Shown piece after piece: positions 22,616 to 64,000 of a stretch of DNA of 64,000 bases. Origin of the DNA: Cenococcum geophilum 1.58 (Eukaryota; Ascomycota; Dothideomycetes; Gloniales; Gloniaceae); assembly GCA_001692895.1 (NCBI GenBank), contig KV748177.1, positions 4,130,130 to 4,194,129 of the forward strand, given 5' to 3'. The stretch's first letter is position 1, and each line of letters begins with the position of its first letter. A program made the translations under genes and the position numbers. The notes beneath the pieces are model-generated. The model saw only the letters and a program-made list of their open reading frames with translations, did no database searches and was not told where the DNA came from.

Positions 22616-25600
22616 TCATACTTCCAACCGGTTTACACCATTTTCAGCATCTGTATGGGGCTTCTGCGAAAGAAGCAGGTCTTCTAGTTCTCTTTTCCGA
22701 CGTTGAACCTTCAAGACATGCTATTTATAGTTAGCAATCGTTGCTGTGGAGAATCGGTGGAAAAACCTCTTCAAAAGAGCCCTTCATCACAAATCGGACG
22801 GTTGTAACTTCTTTCGTCTGACCCATTCGGTGAATCCGAGCCAAGGCTTGCTCCTCGACCGTAGGGTTCCACTGTGGTTCCATGATATAGGCGCAAGAGG
22901 CTGCAGTGATATCAAGACTACGCTTTGTTAGGAGTTTCTTAAATGATGTAATGAGCATGGTATTCTTACCCAACTGATGCGCATGATATGGTCATAAGTA
23001 TGACGGAGATCATCGGCTCGCGCCGAAACTTGTCCAACGCAATTAGCCTATTTTCTGGAGAAACTTTGCCGTCGAATCGGACATAAGAGATTGAAGCTTG
23101 ATCAAGTCCCTGCTCAATTAAATCGAGGGTGGACCTCCAATAGGAAAATACGACGCTAATACAGTAAGCTCTACTCCTGTACGCATGTTTAAAGGTCGGC
23201 TTTCGTAATACTCACCTCTTCACGCCCTCCTGTAGATTTTGCAGATCGGTAATGAGAGCCTTGACTTTGGTTGACAGTCCCTCCTGATCTTGCGCAAATT
23301 CGGATGGCCTTGGTGAGGACACATTTGAAGAATTGTTCGAAAAAGAGCCCCTCGAGACAGGGATCACAGGGCACTGTGGTACATGGCCACATAGGGATAT
23401 ATTAGCATTCGGAGACTCTGAAAACTGCTGGGTGCAACTCGAGCATATAATACGAAGGCAACGCGAAATGTGCAGATGTGAATGATCTCTAGGTCCTCCA
23501 GCCAACATGTCGTCCTCGGTCGCATCCAGGTCCAGGGAACATGAAAAACAAGAGACATTTTCAACCGTCACAAGGGAGTCGAACATTCTTTGCGCTGCGG
23601 CAGTATTCCATTCGCATTTCGTCCGGTTAACGTCGAGGCTAATCTGGCGTGTACTAGTTGATCGTTTATACACTCCCAGATTGCATATTAGACGAAGATC
23701 ACTTATTCTCTGTAGAGAATTCATGTACGATACTCGAAAGGATGATCCGGACTGCATGCCCAATGCATTGTCCAGAACACGCACAGCTCTTGTTCTTAAC
23801 TCTTCATAGAGTGAACGTTCTTCATGGCTAAAATCCAAGGCGAACAACTTGTCAACTCTTGAAGGAAGTTCAATGGAATTCTTCGAACGCCGGAGCAATA
23901 TGCACTGGAGTAGTCGTTTTAGTCTCTCGATGGCATGTGTGTCTTGGCGGGACTTCCAAACTTGAGTGATGTCAGCATCGAATGTTTTCGGATCATCATA
24001 CGGGCAAACGCGCAGAAAATGAAAAATCGTTGCGAGGTCAGTTAGGCGGTTTTGCAAAGGTGTACCAGTGACGGCCCACCGTGAAGCAGAATGAAGGGAG
24101 CAGACTGCCTTTGCCGTATTTGTTGAGCGATCTCGAACGTAATGCGCTGTGGAGATTTAGCCTGGGAATGGTATAACAGTATATGATGTCTACAAACCTT
24201 CATCCAGAATGATACGACGCCAGTGCAGAGAGAACAATAAGGACCCTGATCCTTTCCTCCACTCCGACTCAGTAGTCTGATATGTAGTAATAACGACATT
24301 ACAATTATCGAGCTGTGACTTCTTCGTAATGCGTTTTCCAGCATGGTGCCGACGGATGACAAGCGTGCCCTCCTTTAGGTGTCTAAGCTGTTAGTACAGG
24401 CATTGTAGCATGCTAGCCGAATTCTTACTTTTTGAATTGATTTTCCCAAGTCGGTATCACTGTTGAAAGCATTAAATCTCTAACTGCGGCAAAGGTGAAA
24501 GGTTACTCACAAGGTGGTGGCACGATGAGAAGGGTAGCGCTGGTAAAGTGATACGATTCGTAGCAATTCATATCTTTTAGTTCTTCCGACATATCCTGAG
24601 AAGTATTTGAGGAGTCGTTTGCGATAAGTGATATCATACTCAATGATTTCCCAAGTCCCATTGGGTCTGCAAGTATACCTCCACAGAACTGTGGCGGTCT
24701 TGAGATTTGTGTCTTTCTGGTAATGTTGTTCATGTATCTAGCATGATTAGGGCTTGATTGCGAAAGAAAAGCTAGCCATTCGTACAATTTACCATTCGGG
24801 GTCATCACTTCACTCCACACGTCCTTTCCACATTCATCCAAAGCCCACCCACGCTCTCTCTTAACCATGAAATACAGAGCTTGTTTTTGATGTCTAAGCC
24901 CACACTTAGCATTTTAGACGAATAAAAAATAGAATACTTACCGAAAAAGGGAAGTTACTAATGCCGGAGGAGATTCAGTTTCCGGTAGATTTATGGGAGC
25001 ATTTAATCCTTCGAGGAGATCGATGTTCCCGCTTATCTCGCTTATGTGCATATGACGATGAGCTGAATCTAGATCGAGAGTCATGGGAGCCTCTACGTCA
25101 AGGCCAGACAGCCGATGGGGGTTGCAATATCTGACGTTTCGATCACAACCCACAGGGTCCTGTAGATACATATTACACGTTTGGAAGAAATCTCCCACAT
25201 CATCAAAGAGGTCTAAGGGACCATAAACAATTATAGTAAGCGCTGCGGCACGTTGATTTCTTCCTTCTTTTATGCAGTTATCAGAAGGTGAGAGAAAGAT
25301 CTGCATGTCGAGTTGACTATCCTGTGAAAGTGTATAGAGTACTTGGGCTTCTCGTGGACCTACGACGCCTTCCACAAATGGTATACCTTTCAGTGAGAAT
25401 TTTCCACTTTCTAGTAGCTGAACTGGATGTCTAAAAATATTCTGCGGCAGATGGCAAGAAGAAAAACGAGCGGGCACCCCAGTAACCTTTTGGCAGAAGT
25501 AAGTGAAAAGTATATGGGAGGGGAACTGATGGAGGCACACTAACTCACCATACCAAAGCAGACTTGATCATTTACAATTGAACAGCTAATAGGAGAGTCT

Positions 25601-26163
25601 GCTAATTCTCTCAGTACTCCAGTGGATTGATGTCTGGTGGAGAGATAAGCTAGGTTAGCAGCATGGCCGTGATCAGAAAGGGGTGGGTAATGTTGGGAGT
25701 AATACAGTGACACGGTAGAAGAGTCGAAGCTTTGAAATAACACTTCATTAGTAGAGCACACCTGAGTTGCATCTTGCTGTAGATGTAGTCCTGGTGAAGC
25801 CTCAGCAGATTTTGAAGCAGTATACTGAATTTCCAAAGGCATCTCCAAACTCCAGTTGAAGGAGGCCTGATCATTCTGATGGCATTCAAAGGAATACACC
25901 TCTTCCTTTCGGTTAGGAAGTGTTTCTCGTGAAATACATCCAGCTGTACTCCATTGTTCGTATTTTATTGCTTCCGTTGGGGTAATGCACACGCTTCTCT
26001 CATTATGAGTATCCAGCCGGCGGCGTTTGGATTGATGCAGCTCAAATTCGTCGGAGCGTACGAGGGCAGTATTTGACCCTCGCTGTGCGTAATCTTCAGC
26101 CGTCCTCATCTGCAATTTTGTCTCACCAGGTACGCTCGAAGGGAAAGCTTGCGGAGGTGCCAT
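22616..26163 (-). CDS. SNF2-family ATPase, Rad5/HLTF (SMARCA3)-like
   Basis: Nine exons: 26163-25549, 25486-24942, 24893-24511, 24459-24429, 24382-24198, 24146-23216, 23155-22970, 22917-22767 and 22720-22616. Lengths sum to 3,132 nt, in frame throughout (1,043 residues). Motif I is GGILADPMGLGKS (about residue 460; proline replaces the usual glutamate). The DEAH box is assembled across an intron (near 587). TGTPLQNRLTDL, a RING-like cysteine cluster (CFSC...CLRIICSSC, about 790-830) and QWNPTVEEQALARIHRMGQ follow. The middle RING and N-terminal region (DPIGCDRN-like LQDPVGCDRNVRYCNPHRLS) place it with Rad5/Rad16/HLTF proteins acting in DNA-damage tolerance or chromatin remodelling. The start at 26163 is one of two in-frame ATGs; 26367 is the other. 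The last intron has a weak GTTTTT donor but a perfect TGCTAAC branch site. Confidence 0.88.
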
Positions 26164-26540
26164 GGCATGTGGAAGATTGCCTGAGGAAGTTAACACTGTA
26201 TTCTCATACAAGTATATGAAGTCATACCATAGCTCCGGCACTCCAGTCAGCGAAGAGAGGTCATAACACTCATTGTCGTCAATAACATTATGAGCTACTC
26301 TGGTTGCACAGAGAAAGCGAAAAGTCGTCAAAGCGAGGCTAAAGACTACATGCAGGGGGCCTAGCATTGGTGCACATTGTTGGCAAGGCTGAAAGCGAGT
26401 CCGCCTCGTTCATTACGCCTCCATAACTTCTTTGAACCGCTCTTCAGGAGGACTGTAGGAAACGGCCCATCACAACGGAAGCAGAGACATCAATTTCTTT
26501 CTCACAGACAATAATAAGTCTGCTGGAAAAGCATCTCGCC

Positions 26541-29500
26541 ATGTGCCTGGTGTCCGGGAGCTCGGGCCCCTCAGCCTCAACCTCGCCGAAAGCCCTTGCT
26601 CCACAAGCTCGACTTGCGTTCCAAGATGCTTTCAACAAATTTGAGCAAACGGTACGGAAATTCTCTGTTGAGGATTCTCATAACTTCCAGTCTTCTAGTC
26701 TGGAAGATGTACGAAATGCAGCAAAAGAAGTTGAGCGGCAACTTGCTGCAAGGCAGTGTCTTCGTAACATGCGACGGGTCCAACCTTTTCTTGACGGACT
26801 CGAACACTACTCGAAAGTAATCGAAGTACTCTGCAACGGAACGCCATATCTTCCTTGGATCTGGGTAAGTTATAAACCGGAACACCCGACGACTCTTAGT
26901 GGTGGCTTCTAATAATTACGGATTCGCAGGCTCCAGTAAGACTGATGTTGCAGGTAATCTAAAGTTTCGTCCTGTCAAGCACTTTTACTACTTTAGAAAC
27001 CGGTGGTATTTGATAAGTCAAGTAATCAGAAAACGAAGGTCTCTCTAAATTCCATTGGCATGCAAAAGAAAAGTATCATTCCGTGAGCACCAAAATATCC
27101 AAAATACAACAAAAGACAATTTGGAATAGCTTCTCTACACCTTTTTTCAAAGTGTTTTCGCAGGAGATGGAGTTCTACCGAGAAACAGTCGATATCCCAA
27201 AATTGCGCGGTACAGCTGTCGAATCTGACTATGGGTATTCACAGCCTATAATTTATCATTTTCAACCCGTATTGTTGCTGCCAAACTTAGCAGTTCTTGA
27301 AACTAATGAGAGCATCAGCTTGCCGCAGACTTCACGGCAGCATTCGAGAAACTTATATCTGCGTACGGACAAATTGCAGAAAACCTTCCTCGCTTCGATC
27401 GTTTAAGCGACACTTTCAGTGATAATCCGGAATTTCAACAAGTTCTTGCTATTGTCTATACCGACATACTGGAGTTCCATCACAGTGCCTATAAATTCTT
27501 CAGAAGACGTGGTGAGTGGCATTCATTCCTAGCCTGTATGTCCTTAACTCACTTAGATTAGGGTGGAAATGCTTCTTCAGTTCCTCGTGGGGACGATTCG
27601 ACGCACGTTTTAAGTGTATTTTAGAGAGCCTGGCGAAACATACTGATATGGTTGATCGTGAGGCCAACGCTTTTGCAATTGCTGAAGCAAGGGAATGGAG
27701 GCAGCGAGCAATCCAGGCGGCGGCAAAGAGGGAGATGGAGCAATCTGCTGCCCAAGTCCAATCAGTAATTTCTTGGCTCGGGAGCACAGCAACTAAACAG
27801 GACCAACAAGATGATCTTCTTGATCGGCTTTTGTGCAGTTGCTATCCAGAAACATCGGAATGGATAGTGAGGAACTCAAAGATCAGGGCGTGGTCAAAAG
27901 ACCAGCCTACCCAGCCGTTATTGTGGTTAAAGGGGAAGCCAGGATCTGGTAAGTTCACTATCGGTTAATCAAAAAATAGTCACTTACGTTAGCCAGGCAA
28001 AAGCATACTATGCTCCAAGCTAATCCAGTTTCTGCGACAGGATCGTCAATCTACTGTTTTGTTTCACTTTTGCAGCTACTTGTCGGCTGACTCAACCCAA
28101 TCTGCTCTAGTTCTAAAGTCGTTAACCGCGCAACTCCTAAGGCACAATCGGGACCTCTCGTCATACATTTACGACGAATTTATCTTAAAAGGTCTCACGT
28201 CTTCCGTGCAAAACTTAAAGCAGATACTTGCAAATCTTCTTTCCTCCGTAAAAGGACCTCGTATTATCATAGATGGACTCGACGAATGTGAAGACGCAGA
28301 GCAAAAAGTTGTGTTAAGAGATATACTACCCTATGCGTCAGGTGGTGTGTCAGGGGTGGCGTGCAAAATCTTGATTGCAAGCAGAGATGTTCGTTATATC
28401 ACTGCAGTTCTCTCAAAAGGGCCTACTCTGTCTCTCAACGATGAAAGCAATTCAATCAACGCAGCTATCCAAAGCTTTGTACATCAGAGAATTCTCGAAA
28501 TGTATGAGAAATTCCAAGACCTCGAAGTTGACGAACGTGTAATATCTGGTATTGAAAAGGAGATTGTCACGAAATCCGAGGGTCAGCTAAGTATCCGCCC
28601 ATATAGCGTCAAATAATAAGCTACTGATAATTTGCATATTTGAAAAGGGATGTTTCTGTGGGTCCGGCTTGTACTAGGTGTCTTGGAAGATGATGTATAT
28701 AGCACTAGCGAGTTGAAAACTGTTGTTCGAAGTCTTCCAACAGGTCTGAAGGATTTGTGAGTGCGCTATATGGCCTACACATAATCTGTTGTATTGTTGC
28801 TTACTCTTTTACTAGCTATGAGCGGATCCTTGATAGAATTAGGAACCTCAGCCCCCAGAGTTTTAAAAAGGCCATTCGTATTCTGGAGTGGATTGCCTTC
28901 GCAAAACGACCCCTTCAGAAATTTGAACTCCAAAATGCTCTAGCTTTCCCTACAGCTGGCGATACTCCGAATGAGGGCGAGAAACTATCAGAGACAGTAT
29001 TGCACCTTTGCAGACCGCTGATTGAGGATGGCTTTAACGGGATAGTGACATTTGTTCACTTCTCCGTTCACGAGTAAGGGCGACACGTTGCTCAACATTG
29101 GCGACGGCTAATTTCCGTAAGATATCTTGTGCATAAACTTAGCGGCCCGTTTTTGAAGCAACCGAAAGCGGAATATGATCTCACGACGGCATGCGTTGCA
29201 TGCATTGGATTTAGTATCGGCCTCATTAATGCTAGGTCTCCGGAAGACCACCGTACCGCCAATGTTGGTAGAGGGTTTCACGCACTCTACTTGTATGCAA
29301 ATGAGTACTGGATTGACCATCTCTCCTCTTATATTCATGCCGGTGGTAGTCTCAATACCAACGAATCCGGTTCCCTTCGCCATCAACTTGGCCGACTTGT
29401 TGATTTACAAAAGCGCTACGAAGTGCAAAATTTGAGCAATTCTGCGCCTCCGCGAGATCGCTTTCTCTCAGTCGATGGACGCCTTGCTTATTTAGCGGAT

Positions 29501-31469
29501 TGCCCTGAAATTCACAGACTGGCCAGCAAAATAGTTGCATTCCGAGATTCGCAACAGAGGAAACAGTTAGAAACCAACTTTGGTATGTACAGTTAATCTA
29601 TTCCATGTATGCGAAACATGAGTACATTTTGTGACCACTCTGCGCGTGGAATCAGTACGTGCCTTTCGGTTTGTAAGATATTCGGAACCACTTGGGCGTA
29701 CGCCCACGTCCACGGCTCTTTGCGCTGTGCTTCCGTATCTTTGGAACGAGACCAAAGATAGTTGCTAATTAAACGTGCTCACGTAGATACTACACGGTCT
29801 CAAGAGCGAGACCCCACTCCGTTCAGCAATATGCTACATAGTTATCTGAATCGGGTACATCAATTACTTGGGTCCGACAGCTTTCCCGGTCTTACGAATG
29901 GACAATTGTCTATATTCAAATCTACATACGGGCCAACAGCCTTTGTCTGTCGTTTCTTCGGCTGCACACAATCGACGACTGGATTTGCAAATGATCAGCT
30001 TCGTAGGCAACACGAACTCATCCATGCTCCGCCACTGCTATGTAATAACTCTAGTTGTTCTTATGGTTTAAGTTTTGGATCTTTGGAAGCACTCAAGCGC
30101 CACATGAGGGAGAACCACGAAGATACACCACCAACAATTCCAAGATCCGTGCGTTTACGCTCTGTTAAGCTTTCCTCAGCGGCACTTGAAAACGGGGTCT
30201 CGACACAGCCAGCATCTTCTGCCGTCGACCCCGATACCTACACTTGCGTTTACCGTGGCTGCACATTGCGCTTTGAAACTTCGCAGGAACTTCAAAAGCA
30301 TGAGCGCGACAAGCATCACCGAAACCTAATCTCGTTAAGTAACGAATCTGATCATATTGTCTTCAGCTCATCCTCCCAATCCCAAAGCCATGAAAGAGAC
30401 AGCGTCGGCTGCAACCCTGTTACGGTAATATACCATATTTTAAAAGTTTTACAGGGCCATTCGGACATTGTCAACGCCGTCGCCTTCTCGCCGGACGGCA
30501 AGCTGGTCGCGTCGGCATCGGACGACCGCACCATCAGGCTCTGGGACGCAGCCACGGGAGCGGCGCTGCAGACGCTCGAGGGCCATTCGAATTTGGTCTG
30601 CGCCGTTGCCTTCTCGCCGGACGGCAAGCTGGTCGCGTCGGCCATCGTTCGATCACACCGTCAGGCTCTGGGATGCAGCTACGGGAGCGGCGCTGCAGAC
30701 CGCTCGAGGGCCATTCGGATGAGGTCCGCGACATCGCCTTCTCGCGACGGCAAGCTGGTCGCGTCAGCATCGTACGATTGCACCGTTAGGCTCTGGGACG
30801 GCTGGCACGGGAGCGGCGCTGCAGACGCTCGAGGGCATTCGGGTGAGGTCTGCGACGTCGCCTTCTCGGCCGAACGGCAAGCTGGTTGCGTCGGCATCGT
30901 TATCGTCGGCATCGTTATCGTTCGATCGCGTTGTTAGACTCTGGGACGCAGCCACGGGAGCGGCGCTGCAGACGCTCGAGGGCCATTTGGATGAGGCAGC
31001 GCCGTCGCCTTTCTCGCCGGACGGCACGCTGGTCGCGTCGGCATCGCTCGATCACACCGTCAGGCTCTGGGATGCGAGCACGGGAGCGGCGCTGCAGACG
31101 CTCGAGGGCCATTCGGGTGAGGTCAGTGCCGTCGCCTTCTCGCCGGACGGTAAGCTGGGTCGCGTCGGCATCGTTCGATCACACCATCAGGCTCTGGGAC
31201 GCAGCCACGGGAGCGGCGCTGCAGACGCTCGAGGGCATTCGAATTTGGTCTGCGCCGTTGCCTTCTCGCCGGACGGCAAGCTGGTCGCGTCGGCATCGCT
31301 CGATCACACCGTCAGGCTCTGGGATGCGAACACGGGAGCGGCGCTGCAGACGCTCGAGGGCCATTCGGGTGAAGTCCGCGACGTCGCCTTCTCGCCGGAC
31401 GGCATGCTGGTCGCGTCGGCATCGTACGATTCTACCGTTAGGCTCTGGAAAGCGGCGGAGTTCACGTAG
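26541..31469 (+). CDS. STAND receptor: DUF7708-NACHT-3xC2H2-WD40, frame broken in WD40 array
   Basis: A fungal NLR-type receptor. Exons: 26541-26864, 26930-26953, 27319-27511, 27562-27948, 27997-28581, 28648-28756, 28816-29073, 29122-29582, then 29787 onward; all join in frame. Residues 1-240 match the DUF7708 type (RQLAARQCLRNMRRVQPFL, LCNGTPYLPWIW). The NACHT domain has Walker A GKPGSGKS, assembled across an intron at 27948/27997, and Walker B IIIDGLDEC. A helical/winged region follows (FVHFSVHEYL, also formed by splicing). Next come three C2H2-like fingers (29920-30330), then eight WD40 repeats of about 126 bp from 30455. Single-base gains and losses in repeats 2-7 leave repeat 8 one base out of frame with repeat 1; the first break is near 30640. 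Such proteins are cytoplasmic non-self or stress sensors triggering regulated death. Intron 2 (365 bp) is unusually long. Confidence 0.85.
30455..31469 (+). repeat. Eight near-identical WD40 repeats
   Basis: Units at 30455, 30581, 30709, 30834, 30981, 31107, 31234 and 31359, with lengths 126, 128, 125, 147, 126, 127, 125 and 111 to the stop. Each encodes GHS...VAFSPDGKLVASASxDxTxRLWDAATGAALQTLE. The array is GC-rich and starts abruptly after an AT-rich stretch. Unit 4 carries a 21-nt gain containing a local duplication of GTCGGCATCGTTATC. Confidence 0.92.
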
Positions 31470-35176: not shown

Positions 35177-35248
<72 letters not shown>

Positions 35249-35466
35249 GGGGTGCGATTCCTGAGATTGAGTGTGTGGGTGATGGGGGGGAGATTTGTGT
35301 GGGTGAGGATGGAGATGTTGGCGGTGGTGGTGCGGATGGCGGGCTGGATTGCTTCCGGTTTGAGCAATGGGAGCAGCTGCCAGAGTTTGCGGGCGCGGTG
35401 GGTGCGCCGCAGGTGATGCGGTGGGATGAGAGCGAGTTGGCGCTTGGGATGGACTTCAGCACTTGA
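32508..35466 (+). CDS. Homeodomain plus C2H2 transcription factor with Zn2Cys6-like cluster
   Basis: Two exons, 32508-32671 and 32919-35466 (903 residues); an extra small exon inside the 247 bp intron cannot be excluded. The ATG sits in a good context (CACCATGG). In order: a cysteine cluster spaced CX2CX6CX9CX2CX6C (about residues 98-128); a TALE/KN-type homeodomain (about 194-247) with the recognition helix SQISNWMANTRRRQK; Ser/Asn-rich linker; C2H2 fingers from FQCTFCTDRFKSKYDWSRH onward, including FYRKDHLRQHLRLMH and GFCAQEF; a Thr/Pro/Ser-rich stretch; then a conserved tail (DNPEWLALFKKAHG). Fungal homeobox-C2H2 factors are nuclear regulators of development. A run of 70 G at 35178-35247 encodes poly-glycine and sets the frame of the last 73 residues. 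Confidence 0.88.
35178..35247 (+). repeat. 70-base G homopolymer inside the homeodomain gene
   Basis: An uninterrupted run of G on the coding strand, read as about 23 glycines. At the printed length the downstream frame is open to the stop at 35464-35466. Homopolymers of this length are rarely assembled exactly, so the true number is uncertain. Confidence 0.9.
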
Positions 35467-59878: not shown

Positions 59879-62800
59879 TCCACCCACCGCAGCCGCAAAT
59901 CGAGTACGGTCCTTGTACAGTTAGTCTATAGGTCTTTAGCTGATGCGGTTCGCATAAGTCTCGTCGCTGTGCACGGCCTAAACCCGACAAATACTGAGTT
60001 CCATGCGGAGCAAACGTGGACTGCCGAGGGCAAGCTCTGGCTAAGGGACTTTCTTCCATCGCGGGTCCCTACAGCAAGGGTGTTGCTATTCGGATACAAT
60101 TCAAATGTGGCTTTTGAAACTTCGATCGCCGGCGTGCTGGAACAAGCCGAGAACCTCTTGAATCGGCTGAAATCCAAGAGAGCCGTAAAAGGTCCATTTC
60201 ACGTGTGTATATCACAGGCTGACTGCGGGCTAGACGGCCCCTGACCGACCACTGATATTTATCTGCCACAGCTTAGGCGGTATTGTTGTGAAGCAAGTAG
60301 GTGGCTTGTGAAGCCTATAAGACCACGAACTAACTCATTAGGCTCTCGTGCACGCGAAGCTCGATGATTCGTACCGCCAGATACGGACTGCAACATATGG
60401 CATTGCTTTCTTTGGAACGCCTCATCAAGGCGGTAACCACACATACCTTGGAGATATAGCTTCAAGTATTGCCCGAGCGGTACTACGAAACCCGAGACCC
60501 AATTTTATGGAAGCATTGAAAGGGGATTCCCTTTTTGCGGATACCCTCGTCCAGCATTTCCGACAATTACTTGAAGACTATTACATCTTGAGTTTCTTTG
60601 AGACTCGTCCCTTCAAGAAACTAGGCACAGTAAGTCTGAATGAACATTTAGAACAGACATAGCTCATAAGCGTAGATCGTGGACAAGAAATCAGCTACCC
60701 TCGGGCTCCCTGGAACACGCGAAAAGCAGATTGCCATGGACGCGGACCATAGTCATATCTGCAAGTTCGAGCGGGATGACGACGATGCTTATGAGCAAGT
60801 AGCAGACAATGTGGTGGAGCTGATCGCAAATGCCGTTCAGGCCGTGGCAGACCGTGAACGGCTAACAAAGTCGAGAGTACCGCATTCTGACCCAAGTCTC
60901 GAAAGCCGGGAACATGCTTGTACGTAAAGTTGCATGGCATGAATATGATATGCTAAGCTGCATTCTCTAAATATCTTGATCTAGTGTCAAGTTTGAGCCC
61001 CATCCCGAATGAAGTAGTTACCACGGACTCCAATGCACAACGGCTGCAAAAGGATCTTTCTCCAGAGGAACAAGGTAAACCAGTCTCTCAAAAGTGGTGA
61101 TAAGTTTACTAAACTGGATTATTAGAGTGTTTGAAGTCGCTCTTCTTTCCAGAAATGGATCTCCGTGTAAATAATATCGCCAACGCAACTGATGAGACGT
61201 GTGAATGGCTTGTCACAAATTTAAGCTACCTGGAATGGCTACAGGCTCGGTCTGGGCTTCTCTGGATTAAAGGGAAGCCTGGAGCGGGAAAGTCAACGCT
61301 CATGAAATACGCGCTCCGGCAGGAGGGCCACGACCAGACTATAATAGCTTCATTCTTCTTCAACGCTCGGGGTTCTCAGCTGGAAAGAACTCCCCTCGGC
61401 ATGTATCGATCTATCCTCCATCAATTACTCCGTTTTGCGCCCTATCAGCTGTGCAGGCTTGCCAAAATCTACAAAGAAAGGTGTCAGACTAGGGGGAAAG
61501 TTAAGAAGGAATGGGAATGGCACGAGGGAGAACTTAAGGATCAGTTGTCGGACTTACTTCTTACGTTAGCGGTTCGTCCCGTGCGACTCTATGTAGATGC
61601 TCTCGACGAGAGCGGAGAAGAGGTCGCAGTACAACTAGTGGAGCAGTTCCAAAGTTTAGTCGCCAAGGTCTCTTGCGCTGGTTATTCCCTAGGTGTCTGC
61701 TTCTCTTGCCGGCATTATCCTATAATTGCGCTCGACGGCTTTACCATCTGTGTTGAGACTGAGAACTCTGCCGACATCCAAGCTTACGTTTATCAAAGAC
61801 TCAGAGCAAATTCCCTTGACGAAAGGAAAGCTAAGTTATTAGCAGTGGAGGTCCTAGAAAGAGCAAATGGAGTGTTCCAATGGATTACGCTTGTGCTTCC
61901 TGAGGTAATCCGCGAATGCAGGCGAGGTAAACGTATAGAGGTGGTTCAGAGCCACATCAGAAGGCTACCTATAAAGCTACATGACCTCTACGGAACAATC
62001 CTCGCAGGCATATCCAACGATGAACGGCTCGAGTCATTGAAGCTGATGCGATGGATATGTTTCGCACTCAGACCACTGTCCTTGCGAGAAATGCGGCACG
62101 CGATGGTTGTTGATCCAAATACGTCATACATCACGCTCCGAGAATGCTTGGATACTGATTCTTACGTGGCAACCGATGAAGACATGAAGATGCGAATTCT
62201 CGATCTATCGAAAGGGCTCGCTGAGATCCGGGTGCACAAGGGACATGATTTCGTCCAATTTGTCCATGAATCCGTTAAAGATTTTCTCGTTCAAGATGGC
62301 CTACAACGCCTGGAAGGTAACGGTCTTGGTAGTACTATTGGTAGAGCGAACCTGCAGCTCGCTTGGACCTGCATACGATATTTCAGCATGGACGAGATCG
62401 TTTCCGTGGAGAAGGATGATCTCGGCAGATACTACCCGGCGGCTGCTGCTCAACAGATCGTTTCTACGTATCCCCTGATACATTATGCAACAGTATCATG
62501 GGTCCCGCATGCTGTGCAGGTAGGGGAGCAGCAGGCGTTTCAAGAGGACCTGTTCCGACTATTATGCCAGTTCCATGGGTCGTGCGAGTACCGAATGAGG
62601 CAGTGGACTCAATTGTACCACGATTTTGACCGTTGGCCAGCCTCCGGTCCTGCCCGAGGTATGACGATTTTGCACATTATTGCAATACATGGGCTCTGCT
62701 ATGTTTTATCTATATTCCTTAATTTAGAACACAACACGGCGGACGCAAAGGACGGCAATGGCCGGACGCCGCTAGCGTGGGCGGCAGCGAGAGGTCATGA

Positions 62801-64000
62801 GACGGTGGTAAAGCTGCTAGTAGAGCGAGGCGACATCGAAGCCGACTCAAAGGACAATAGCGGCCGGACACCGCTGTCGTGGGCGGCAGAGGGAGGGCAT
62901 GAGGCGGTAGTAAAGCTGCTAGTAGAGCGAGACGATGTTAAAGCCGACTTAAAGGGCAATGGCGGCTGGACACCGCTGTCGCGGGCGGCAGGGTATGGGC
63001 ACGAGGCGGTAGTGAGGCTGCTAGTAGAGCGGGACGACGTCGAAGCCGACTCAAAGGACAATAGCGGCCGGACACCGCTGTCGTGGGCGGCAGCTAGAGG
63101 GCACGAGGCGGTGGTAAAGCTGCTAGTAGAGCGGGACGACATCAAAGCCGACTTAAAGGACAATAGCGGCCGGACACCGCTATCGTGGATGGCAGAGGGA
63201 GGGCATGAGGCGGTAGTAAAGCTGCTAGTAGAGCGGGACGACGTTAAAGCCGACTCAAAGGACAATGGCGGCTGGACACCACTGTCGCGGGCGGCAGTGT
63301 ATGGGCACGAGGTGGTGGTAAAGCTGCTAGTAGAGCGGGACGACGTTAAAGCCGACTTAAAGGACAATGACGGCCGGACACCGCTGTCGCTGGCGGCAGA
63401 GTATGGGGGCGAGGCGGTAGTGAGGCTGCTAGTAGAGCGGGACGACGTCGAAGCCGACCCAAGGGATAATAACGGCCGGACACCGCTGTCGTGGGCAGCA
63501 AAGGAAGGGTGTGAGGGGGTGGTAAAGCTGCTAGTAGAGCGGGACGACGTTGAAGCCGACTCGAAGGACAATGACGGCCGAACACCGCTGTCGTGGGCAG
63601 TAGAGGAATGGTGTGAGGCGGTGGTAAAGCTGCTAGTAGAGCGGGACGACGTCGAAGCCGACTCAAAGGACAACGGCGGCCGGACACCGCTGTCGTGGGC
63701 TGTCGTGGGCAGCAGAGGAAGGGTGTGAGGCGGTGGTAAAGCTGCTAGTAGAGCGGGACGACGTCGAAGCCGACTCAAAGGACAATAACGGCCGGACACC
63801 GCTGTCGTGGGCAGTAGAGAAAGGGCATAAGGCGGTGGTAAAGCTGCTAGTAGAGCGGGACGACGTTAAAGCCGACTCAAAGGACAATGACGGCCGGACA
63901 CCGCTGTCGTGGGCGGCAGCGTATGGGCACGAGGCGGTAGTGAGGCTGCTAGTAGAGCGGGAAGACGTCGAAGCCGACTCAAAGGACTGGTACGACCAGA
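59879..64000 (+). CDS. STAND receptor: serine hydrolase-NACHT-ankyrin, partial
   Basis: Exons: (about 59879)-60184, 60234-60296, 60342-60629, 60676-60919, 60985-61074, then 61126 onward; all internal joins keep frame. The N-terminal domain is an alpha/beta hydrolase of the DUF676-like type found in fungal NLRs: VAVHGLN oxyanion strand, FICHSLGGIVVKQ nucleophile elbow (serine present, assembled by splicing at 60184/60234), and FFGTPHQGG. The NACHT has Walker A GKPGAGKST (near 61275), Walker B LYVDALDES and FVQFVHESVKDFL. From 62748 there are 34-residue ankyrin repeats of the form KDNxGRTPLSWAAxxGHEAVVKLLVERDDVxAD. A 10-bp tandem duplication at 63691-63710 shifts the frame and gives a stop ending at 63728, yet the repeats go on to the window edge. 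The start codon is not resolved: the frame is open back to 59879 without an ATG. Confidence 0.85.
62748..64000 (+). repeat. Array of 102 bp ankyrin repeats, at least 12 units
   Basis: Units start every 102 bp from 62748 (the tenth at 63666). Beyond the 10-bp duplication in unit 10 the period resumes, giving twelve full units and a partial one at the edge. Sequence similarity between units is very high, including silent positions (GTAAAGCTGCTAGTAGAGCG recurs), indicating recent amplification or gene conversion. Confidence 0.92.

Follow-up and report, generated by a model that had tools for sequence, protein, structure and literature searches.

A NACHT receptor gene of Cenococcum geophilum whose C-terminal end may combine a host-derived zinc finger with a WD40 cassette

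Introduction

How does a fungal NOD-like receptor (NLR) come by a new sensing end? NLRs in general join a sensing end to a NACHT switch and an N-terminal output, and the question is raised here by a gene in a 64,000-nucleotide stretch of the Cenococcum geophilum 1.58 genome (contig KV748177.1; "the window", with positions counted from its first letter), in which DUF7708 and NACHT domains are followed by C2H2 zinc fingers that run into a WD40 array. Published work describes expanded HET, NACHT and WD40 families in this fungus (PMC5023957, PMC11799279). An earlier note on the DNA had read the array as pasted onto the receptor at an abrupt change of base composition. We argue that the gene probably encodes an NLR-type receptor whose C-terminal sensing end grew by at least two acquisitions, a piece of a host C2H2 gene and a WD40 cassette; their order and direction we infer from sequence comparison. 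The genome searched throughout was the C. geophilum 1.58 assembly alone (177.19 Mb, 162 contigs, labelled C1, C2, C15 and so on), in which the window is C2:4130130-4194129.

Results and discussion

A receptor gene with a probably composite C-terminal end

The receptor and the parts of its C-terminal end are laid out as follows.

26541..30937, plus strand: receptor gene model, with its ATG at 26541, splice joins of consistent phase and a frame that closes at 30937 inside the array
26541-26864, 26930-26953, 27319-27511, 27562-27948 and 27997-28581, plus strand: exons 1-5
28648-28756, 28816-29073, 29122-29582 and 29787-30937, plus strand: exons 6-9
26781..27686, plus strand: DUF7708, amino acids 81-222, intron-interrupted (PF24809, E 5.2e-15, 56.0 bits, cut-off 25)
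27852..28385, plus strand: NPHP3_N/NACHT NTPase, amino acids 278-439 (PF24883, E 4.2e-33; PF05729, E 5.1e-10)
28871..29134, plus strand: GPIID_WHD winged helix after the NACHT domain, amino acids 560-631 (PF22939, cut-off 27)
29948..30118, plus strand: two C2H2 fingers of the receptor family, placed by ligand pattern (ZnF1 29948-30025, ZnF2 30041-30118)
30206..30328, plus strand: stretch similar in DNA and protein to the gene of a host C2H2 transcription factor on C110, with the third finger, ZnF3, at 30245-30316
30416..30454, plus strand: 39-bp linker common to the window and a gene on C27, the 5' edge of a shared cassette
30449..31459, plus strand: WD40 array with a 126-nt period, about 8 units and a guanine-plus-cytosine (GC) content of 0.66, ending in LWKAA as the C27 array does

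The receptor gene is real and its domains lie beyond chance. Its nine exons are separated by eight GT-AG introns of consistent phase, as the earlier note had it, and the exons of the receptor body (about 3.0 kb) contain no stop and no frame break. The intron positions agree with breaks between tblastn matches to paralogues at six of the eight sites in C87 and at four of the eight in C52; the C52 match is uninterrupted at the site of intron 1, and the 24-nt exon 2 is therefore supported. Intron 2 (26954-27318) is the longest of the eight, with 365 nt of unexplained content. The DUF7708 and NACHT domains reported before are likewise upheld by Pfam, with Walker A (GKPGSGKS) found by pattern and Walker B (IIIDGLDE) read by eye, so that an NTPase with both Walker motifs stands behind a separate N-terminal domain that scores above its cut-off, two of the features by which fungal NLRs are recognised. 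Over the full protein the winged helix reached 26.8 bits, slightly short of the cut-off, against 29.8 on the segment alone, and Pfam also matched WD40 in the spliced receptor (E 5.4e-21). Genome-wide there were at least 86 NACHT and at least 29 DUF7708 matches, counts made with exons searched singly and excluding the window gene, C52 and C87. Three C2H2 ligand sets were present by pattern, which bears out the three C2H2-like fingers claimed earlier, all of them under every Pfam C2H2 cut-off.

The third finger matches a host transcription factor gene

A genome search with the C-terminal 349 amino acids gave 10 matches: two each in the window and on C87, with single matches on C52, C110, C25, C99, C15 and C34. 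C110 holds a transcription factor gene, and the other six contigs hold relatives of the receptor. Counterparts of ZnF1 and ZnF2 are found in the C87, C25, C15, C34 and C99 relatives, and of ZnF1 alone in C52 (by eye). The part of the query that covers the third finger (residues 267-314) is matched by the window and C110 alone, the other matches stopping by residue 252; at the corresponding position the C87 relative reads differently and the C52 relative is broken by a dispersed repeat.

The match to the C110 gene extends over window positions 30206-30328 at 76% DNA identity (95 of 125 columns, scored +1/-1), starts about 12 residues ahead of the first cysteine of ZnF3, and was found at the protein level in the genome search with an E-value of 1.6e-11. 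Differences between the two fall 7/7/15 on the first, second and third codon positions. In Pfam the C110 gene yields C2H2 families alone, and in the PDB generic C2H2 proteins (Zif268, ZNF410, TFIIIA); it may be Rpn4-like. These comparisons suggest that the third finger is a domain from a separate host gene, without a counterpart in the receptor's closest relatives, with the copying presumably having run from the transcription factor gene to the receptor. This origin, like the broken frame of the array discussed below, had been overlooked in the earlier note.

A linker shared with a C2H2-WD40 gene marks the seam

The compositional seam described before is there, GC rising from about 0.47 upstream to 0.66 in the array. 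As evidence of pasting we reject it: six other arrays (C39, C27, C1, C9, C65 and C2:4532) have a GC content of 0.64-0.70 between flanks of 0.32-0.47 (one flank value, from 2 bases, was excluded), and because the step is common to all six it is uninformative on pasting.

Similarity between the window and the C27 gene (blastn) runs from 30416 to about 31458, its flanks look unrelated, and the array is C27-like at its start as well as at its end. The core of the linker (30425-30454, 30 nt, at most three mismatches) occurs at two places genome-wide, in the window and at C27:153846-153875, and the reversed core used as a control at none. The window linker, PVTVIYHILKVLQ, contrasts with another linker type in five of the six other arrays, the sixth being C27; those five are of the HET-E type, and the C39 copy carries a stop. 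With two places for the core and unrelated flanks around it, the linker supports pasting better than the GC step does. It differs from the C27 linker at 6 of 39 sites (by eye) and is therefore not a copy of the C27 locus. The true seam would lie about 38 bp upstream of 30454, the position given earlier for the break, at a junction shared with a C2H2-WD40 gene rather than with a HET-E body. The earlier proposal of an array pasted in from a HET-E/NWD-type gene is supported as to the acquisition, by way of the linker, but not as to the body from which the junction came.

Unit similarity did not single out a donor for the array, the best match of the first units being 91% to C39, which has a HET-E-type linker, and 91% to C27. 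The linker core was also considered as a 30-nt intron, having GT and AG ends and a length that is a multiple of three; this seems too short for an intron, and the frame is unaffected.

In the C27 gene itself the frame is open through the array, the fingers score 17.1 bits against a Pfam cut-off of 27, and no match to the receptor body was found in the stretch examined. We examined 8 of the 11 genome matches to the C27 fingers, C27 included, and WD40 repeats lay near one of the seven other loci (C1:3610464-3610901, 9 WD40 hits). It is likely that WD40 arrays became attached to C2H2 genes on more than one occasion, and the shared linker suggests a route by which a hypervariable WD40 array may be attached to unrelated proteins. 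At the C1 locus a C2H2 gene is followed by the WD40 array through a different linker, and the array occupies more than one frame.

Relatives of the receptor carry other tails

A C2H2 end without WD40, predicted before for orthologues, is what the same genome offers: nine stretches of the six relatives (6.2 kb of C52, 8.8 kb of C87 and 3.2-3.6 kb for each of the others) gave no WD40 unit hit, although the ends of the relatives may lie outside these stretches. The C15 relative is a DUF7708-NACHT-C2H2-ankyrin gene, with its DUF7708 and NACHT matches upstream of the ankyrin repeats; in C25 and C34 the NACHT domain was recognised by eye. The C34 fingers (C34:943150-944208) share 68% identity over 102 residues with another gene, on C5, that looks like CrzA, and C25 and C99 match these fingers at 42% and 47%.

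The C87 paralogue (C87:161563-166752) has the same receptor body, at 31-64% identity by exon, plus the finger pair, and its finger-bearing open reading frame (ORF; 164443-166752, with one N) runs in frame into stretches of two host genes. One stretch matches a gene on C19 at 89% DNA identity over 317 bp; that gene scores 27.3 bits for Pfam Spt20_SEP, barely over the cut-off of 27.1. The other matches a gene on C15, here called the C15 donor, at 95.5% over 1247 bp and 91% over 136 bp. When its three exons are joined, the N-terminus of the C15 donor scores 35.3 bits for KIX_2 against a cut-off of 25.6, which fits Med15, and CBP KIX domains appear in the PDB at E 0.003 and weaker; its long ORF matched no Pfam family, and hand-picked pieces gave nothing. 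We did not trust two weak, glutamine-rich PDB matches (E 2.9e-5 and 0.001) that would have made it transcription elongation regulator 1. Between C87 and its donors, substitutions fall 7/5/11 and 9/9/10 on the three codon positions, without clear constraint, and all four gap lengths are divisible by three, so that the frame is kept. The whole last exon of C87 matched no Pfam family, its fingers being read by eye.

The tail of the C52 relative was rejected as a captured host gene: its finger region (C52:1001713-1002129) is a dispersed degenerate repeat with at least 148 matches across the genome when it is counted too, many of them containing stops. Elsewhere, at C39:610678-610863, 165 bp of the Med15-like gene (93% identity) lie in another open frame, at a locus with a C2H2-like motif at a distance and no match to the receptor body.

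The broken frame of the array and rival explanations

The statement that WD40 repeats follow the fingers holds for about 1.5 units, into which exon 9 reads in frame before closing at 30937; the gene end of 31469 given before belongs to an ORF (30723-31469) in another frame. Beyond this, several observations weigh against the proposed history. Relative to the consensus of the C27 units, the array carries ten frame-breaking indels at 30642-31236, and its substitutions fall 25/38/32 on the three codon positions, without a third-position excess. The match to the transcription factor gene is short, about 41 codons, and gene conversion could also account for the shared linker. In its favour, the published hypervariable WD40 positions (10, 11, 12, 14, 30, 32 and 39; PMC12222747) fit best at one identical register of 42 in all seven arrays tested, the window's included. 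The window array has 62 first- and second-position substitutions, of which 42 lie on these 7 of 42 codons (10.3 expected); third-position changes cluster there too (14 of 31; 5.2 expected), so the clustering is no proof of selection on the protein, and in this tally a difference that recurs across units is counted each time.

The indels themselves, nine of 1 nt and one of 2 nt, lengthen or shorten a short run in eight of ten cases (by eye). A further insertion, of 21 nt, keeps the frame, and a difference of 4 nt lies where the cassette stops, its inclusion bringing the count to 11. Of seven other arrays compared, those of C27, C39 and C9 are clean and the remaining four are broken (23 indels in C65, one in C2:4532, and 42 and 31 in two arrays on C1, the second at C1:3610464; both C1 counts are unreliable, the yardstick being distant). 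The clean C39 array contains five single Ns, at codons 24, 6, 7, 12 and 25, three of them hypervariable, and these look like an unresolved repeat, although an N may also stand for a masked base. Such arrays are described as prone to Ns and wrong repeat numbers when assembled from short reads, with one 1-bp deletion traced to misassembly (PMC12222747). From the similar breaks elsewhere and the Ns within C39, assembly error is suggested for most frame breaks in the window, and we consider it more likely than decay, without proof. The practical warning is that frames and repeat numbers of these arrays may be untrustworthy in this assembly.

If the breaks are instead real, the receptor is a decayed one whose product, if any, would have about 1163 residues and a single complete WD40 unit, and the array is a relic. 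We consider this unlikely, while granting that there are ten frame-breaking indels within about 600 bp and no third-position excess, that stop codons in a WD40 repeat of a wild strain were confirmed by reads (PMC12222747), and that the C39 linker, too, has its stop. Decay sits poorly with the intact body exons, with substitutions that still fall on hypervariable codons, with 1-nt indels in four of seven other arrays, and with the Ns of C39.

An array that has long stood where it is, GC-rich like the others and sharing the C27 linker through gene conversion, would need no recent paste. The generality of the GC step and the equal nearness of the first units to C39 and C27 speak for it; the relatives' stretches without WD40 hits, a linker core found nowhere else in the genome and the differing linkers of five of six other arrays make it quite improbable. 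Least of all do we expect two separate genes or an assembly misjoin, the receptor stopping after its fingers and the array belonging elsewhere. Arrays do look unreliable in this assembly, yet exon 9 stays open and in frame as it enters the first WD40 unit, the linker is no copy of that of C27, and the array is of the C27 type at both ends. We therefore keep to a receptor extended by a host finger and a WD40 cassette as the probable history.

How such a receptor might work

Under this history, part of a host gene for a C2H2 transcription factor would have become the receptor's third finger, and a WD40 cassette, an HNWD-type hypervariable array with its own 39-bp linker, would have been joined in frame behind it. 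The C-terminal end would then detect either a ligand or a host factor under attack, the NACHT domain would oligomerise with ATP, and the N-terminal DUF7708 would set off a response, regulated cell death for instance. The copied finger could serve as bait, an integrated decoy for whatever attacks the original regulator, and the WD40 propeller, if made, could offer a fast-changing surface for a variable ligand, as in HNWD arrays. The swap of ligand specificity proposed in the earlier note would be a possible consequence.

The receptor family seems to collect fragments of the host transcription machinery at its sensing end, which makes its members candidates for integrated decoys. As a tentative extension, perhaps true but more doubtful, NACHT-C2H2 receptors may be a platform that has repeatedly taken in such pieces (a C2H2 regulator in the window, Spt20 and Med15-like stretches in C87, CrzA-like fingers in C34), with a transferable WD40 cassette besides in the window gene, as decoys guarding transcriptional regulators. 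Plant NLRs are the well-known setting of integrated decoys. For fungi, a survey of Sordariales offers a kinase case (PMC12258605), and two sibling receptors with host donors recognisable in DNA would make a concrete test set for fungal decoys.

Neighbouring features

23215..26409, minus strand: divergent SNF2-family neighbour of the receptor, its SNF2 domain at 23215-24913 and open frames on to 26409

The neighbour matches PF00176 at E 2.8e-26 (23215-24156) and 3.1e-11 (24506-24913). An SNF2-like gene stands head to head with the receptor and also with the C52 paralogue (C52:997001-998456; tblastx E 4e-33). Elsewhere in the window, 35178-35252 consists of 75 G in a row (97% match) and may be an assembly artefact, and 62760-63987 is an array with a 102-nt period and about 12 copies, ankyrin-like by eye.

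Comparison with known systems

No report of such a receptor was found in the open-access literature, which is weak as evidence of novelty: PMC9815663 does not mention zinc finger, C2H2, DUF7708 or NPHP3, PMC4986451 does not mention zinc finger or C2H2, and part of the text of PMC11412873 yielded nothing on the receptor's architecture. What appears new is the host gene match of the third finger and the placing of C2H2 beside WD40; the array is of a known, HNWD-like kind.

HET-E and HET-D of Podospora anserina (HNWD) likewise have a NACHT domain and then 42-residue WD40 units with hypervariable codons in the same register. Where they have HET, the window receptor has DUF7708; it also differs in the C2H2 fingers ahead of its array, in its linker and, in this assembly, in its broken frame. 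No HET domain occurred among the Pfam matches listed (25 of 48 families). Because no HET domain was seen and the linker differs, the receptor is, as judged from its sequence, not an HNWD member, while its array is HNWD-like.

Among Sordariales, 34 NLRs also have C2H2 fingers on the C-terminal side, and some non-canonical domains are proposed by the authors of that survey to be integrated decoys (PMC12258605). The 16 zinc-finger domains that the same source places beside canonical repeats are all treble clef, and C2H2 adjoining WD40 is therefore not reported in it (PMC12258605). The window receptor differs from those C2H2 NLRs in having C2H2 beside WD40 and a proposed host donor for one finger. 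The domain combination, called unusual in the earlier note, is thus absent from the survey, while fingers beside repeats do recur in the C15 relative. That relative likewise joins body, fingers and a repeat array, with ankyrin for WD40, and is distant (28% identity over the matched part).

Closer at hand, the C87 paralogue shares the body, the finger pair and the principle of a host-gene tail, with different donors (Spt20 and Med15-like) and no WD40 in the 8.8 kb examined, whereas the C27 C2H2-WD40 gene shares the linker and array end, keeps its frame open and lacks a receptor-body match in the stretch examined. Plant NLRs with integrated domains likewise fuse a host-derived domain to an NLR, in another kingdom; the window receptor would be a candidate for a fungal parallel.

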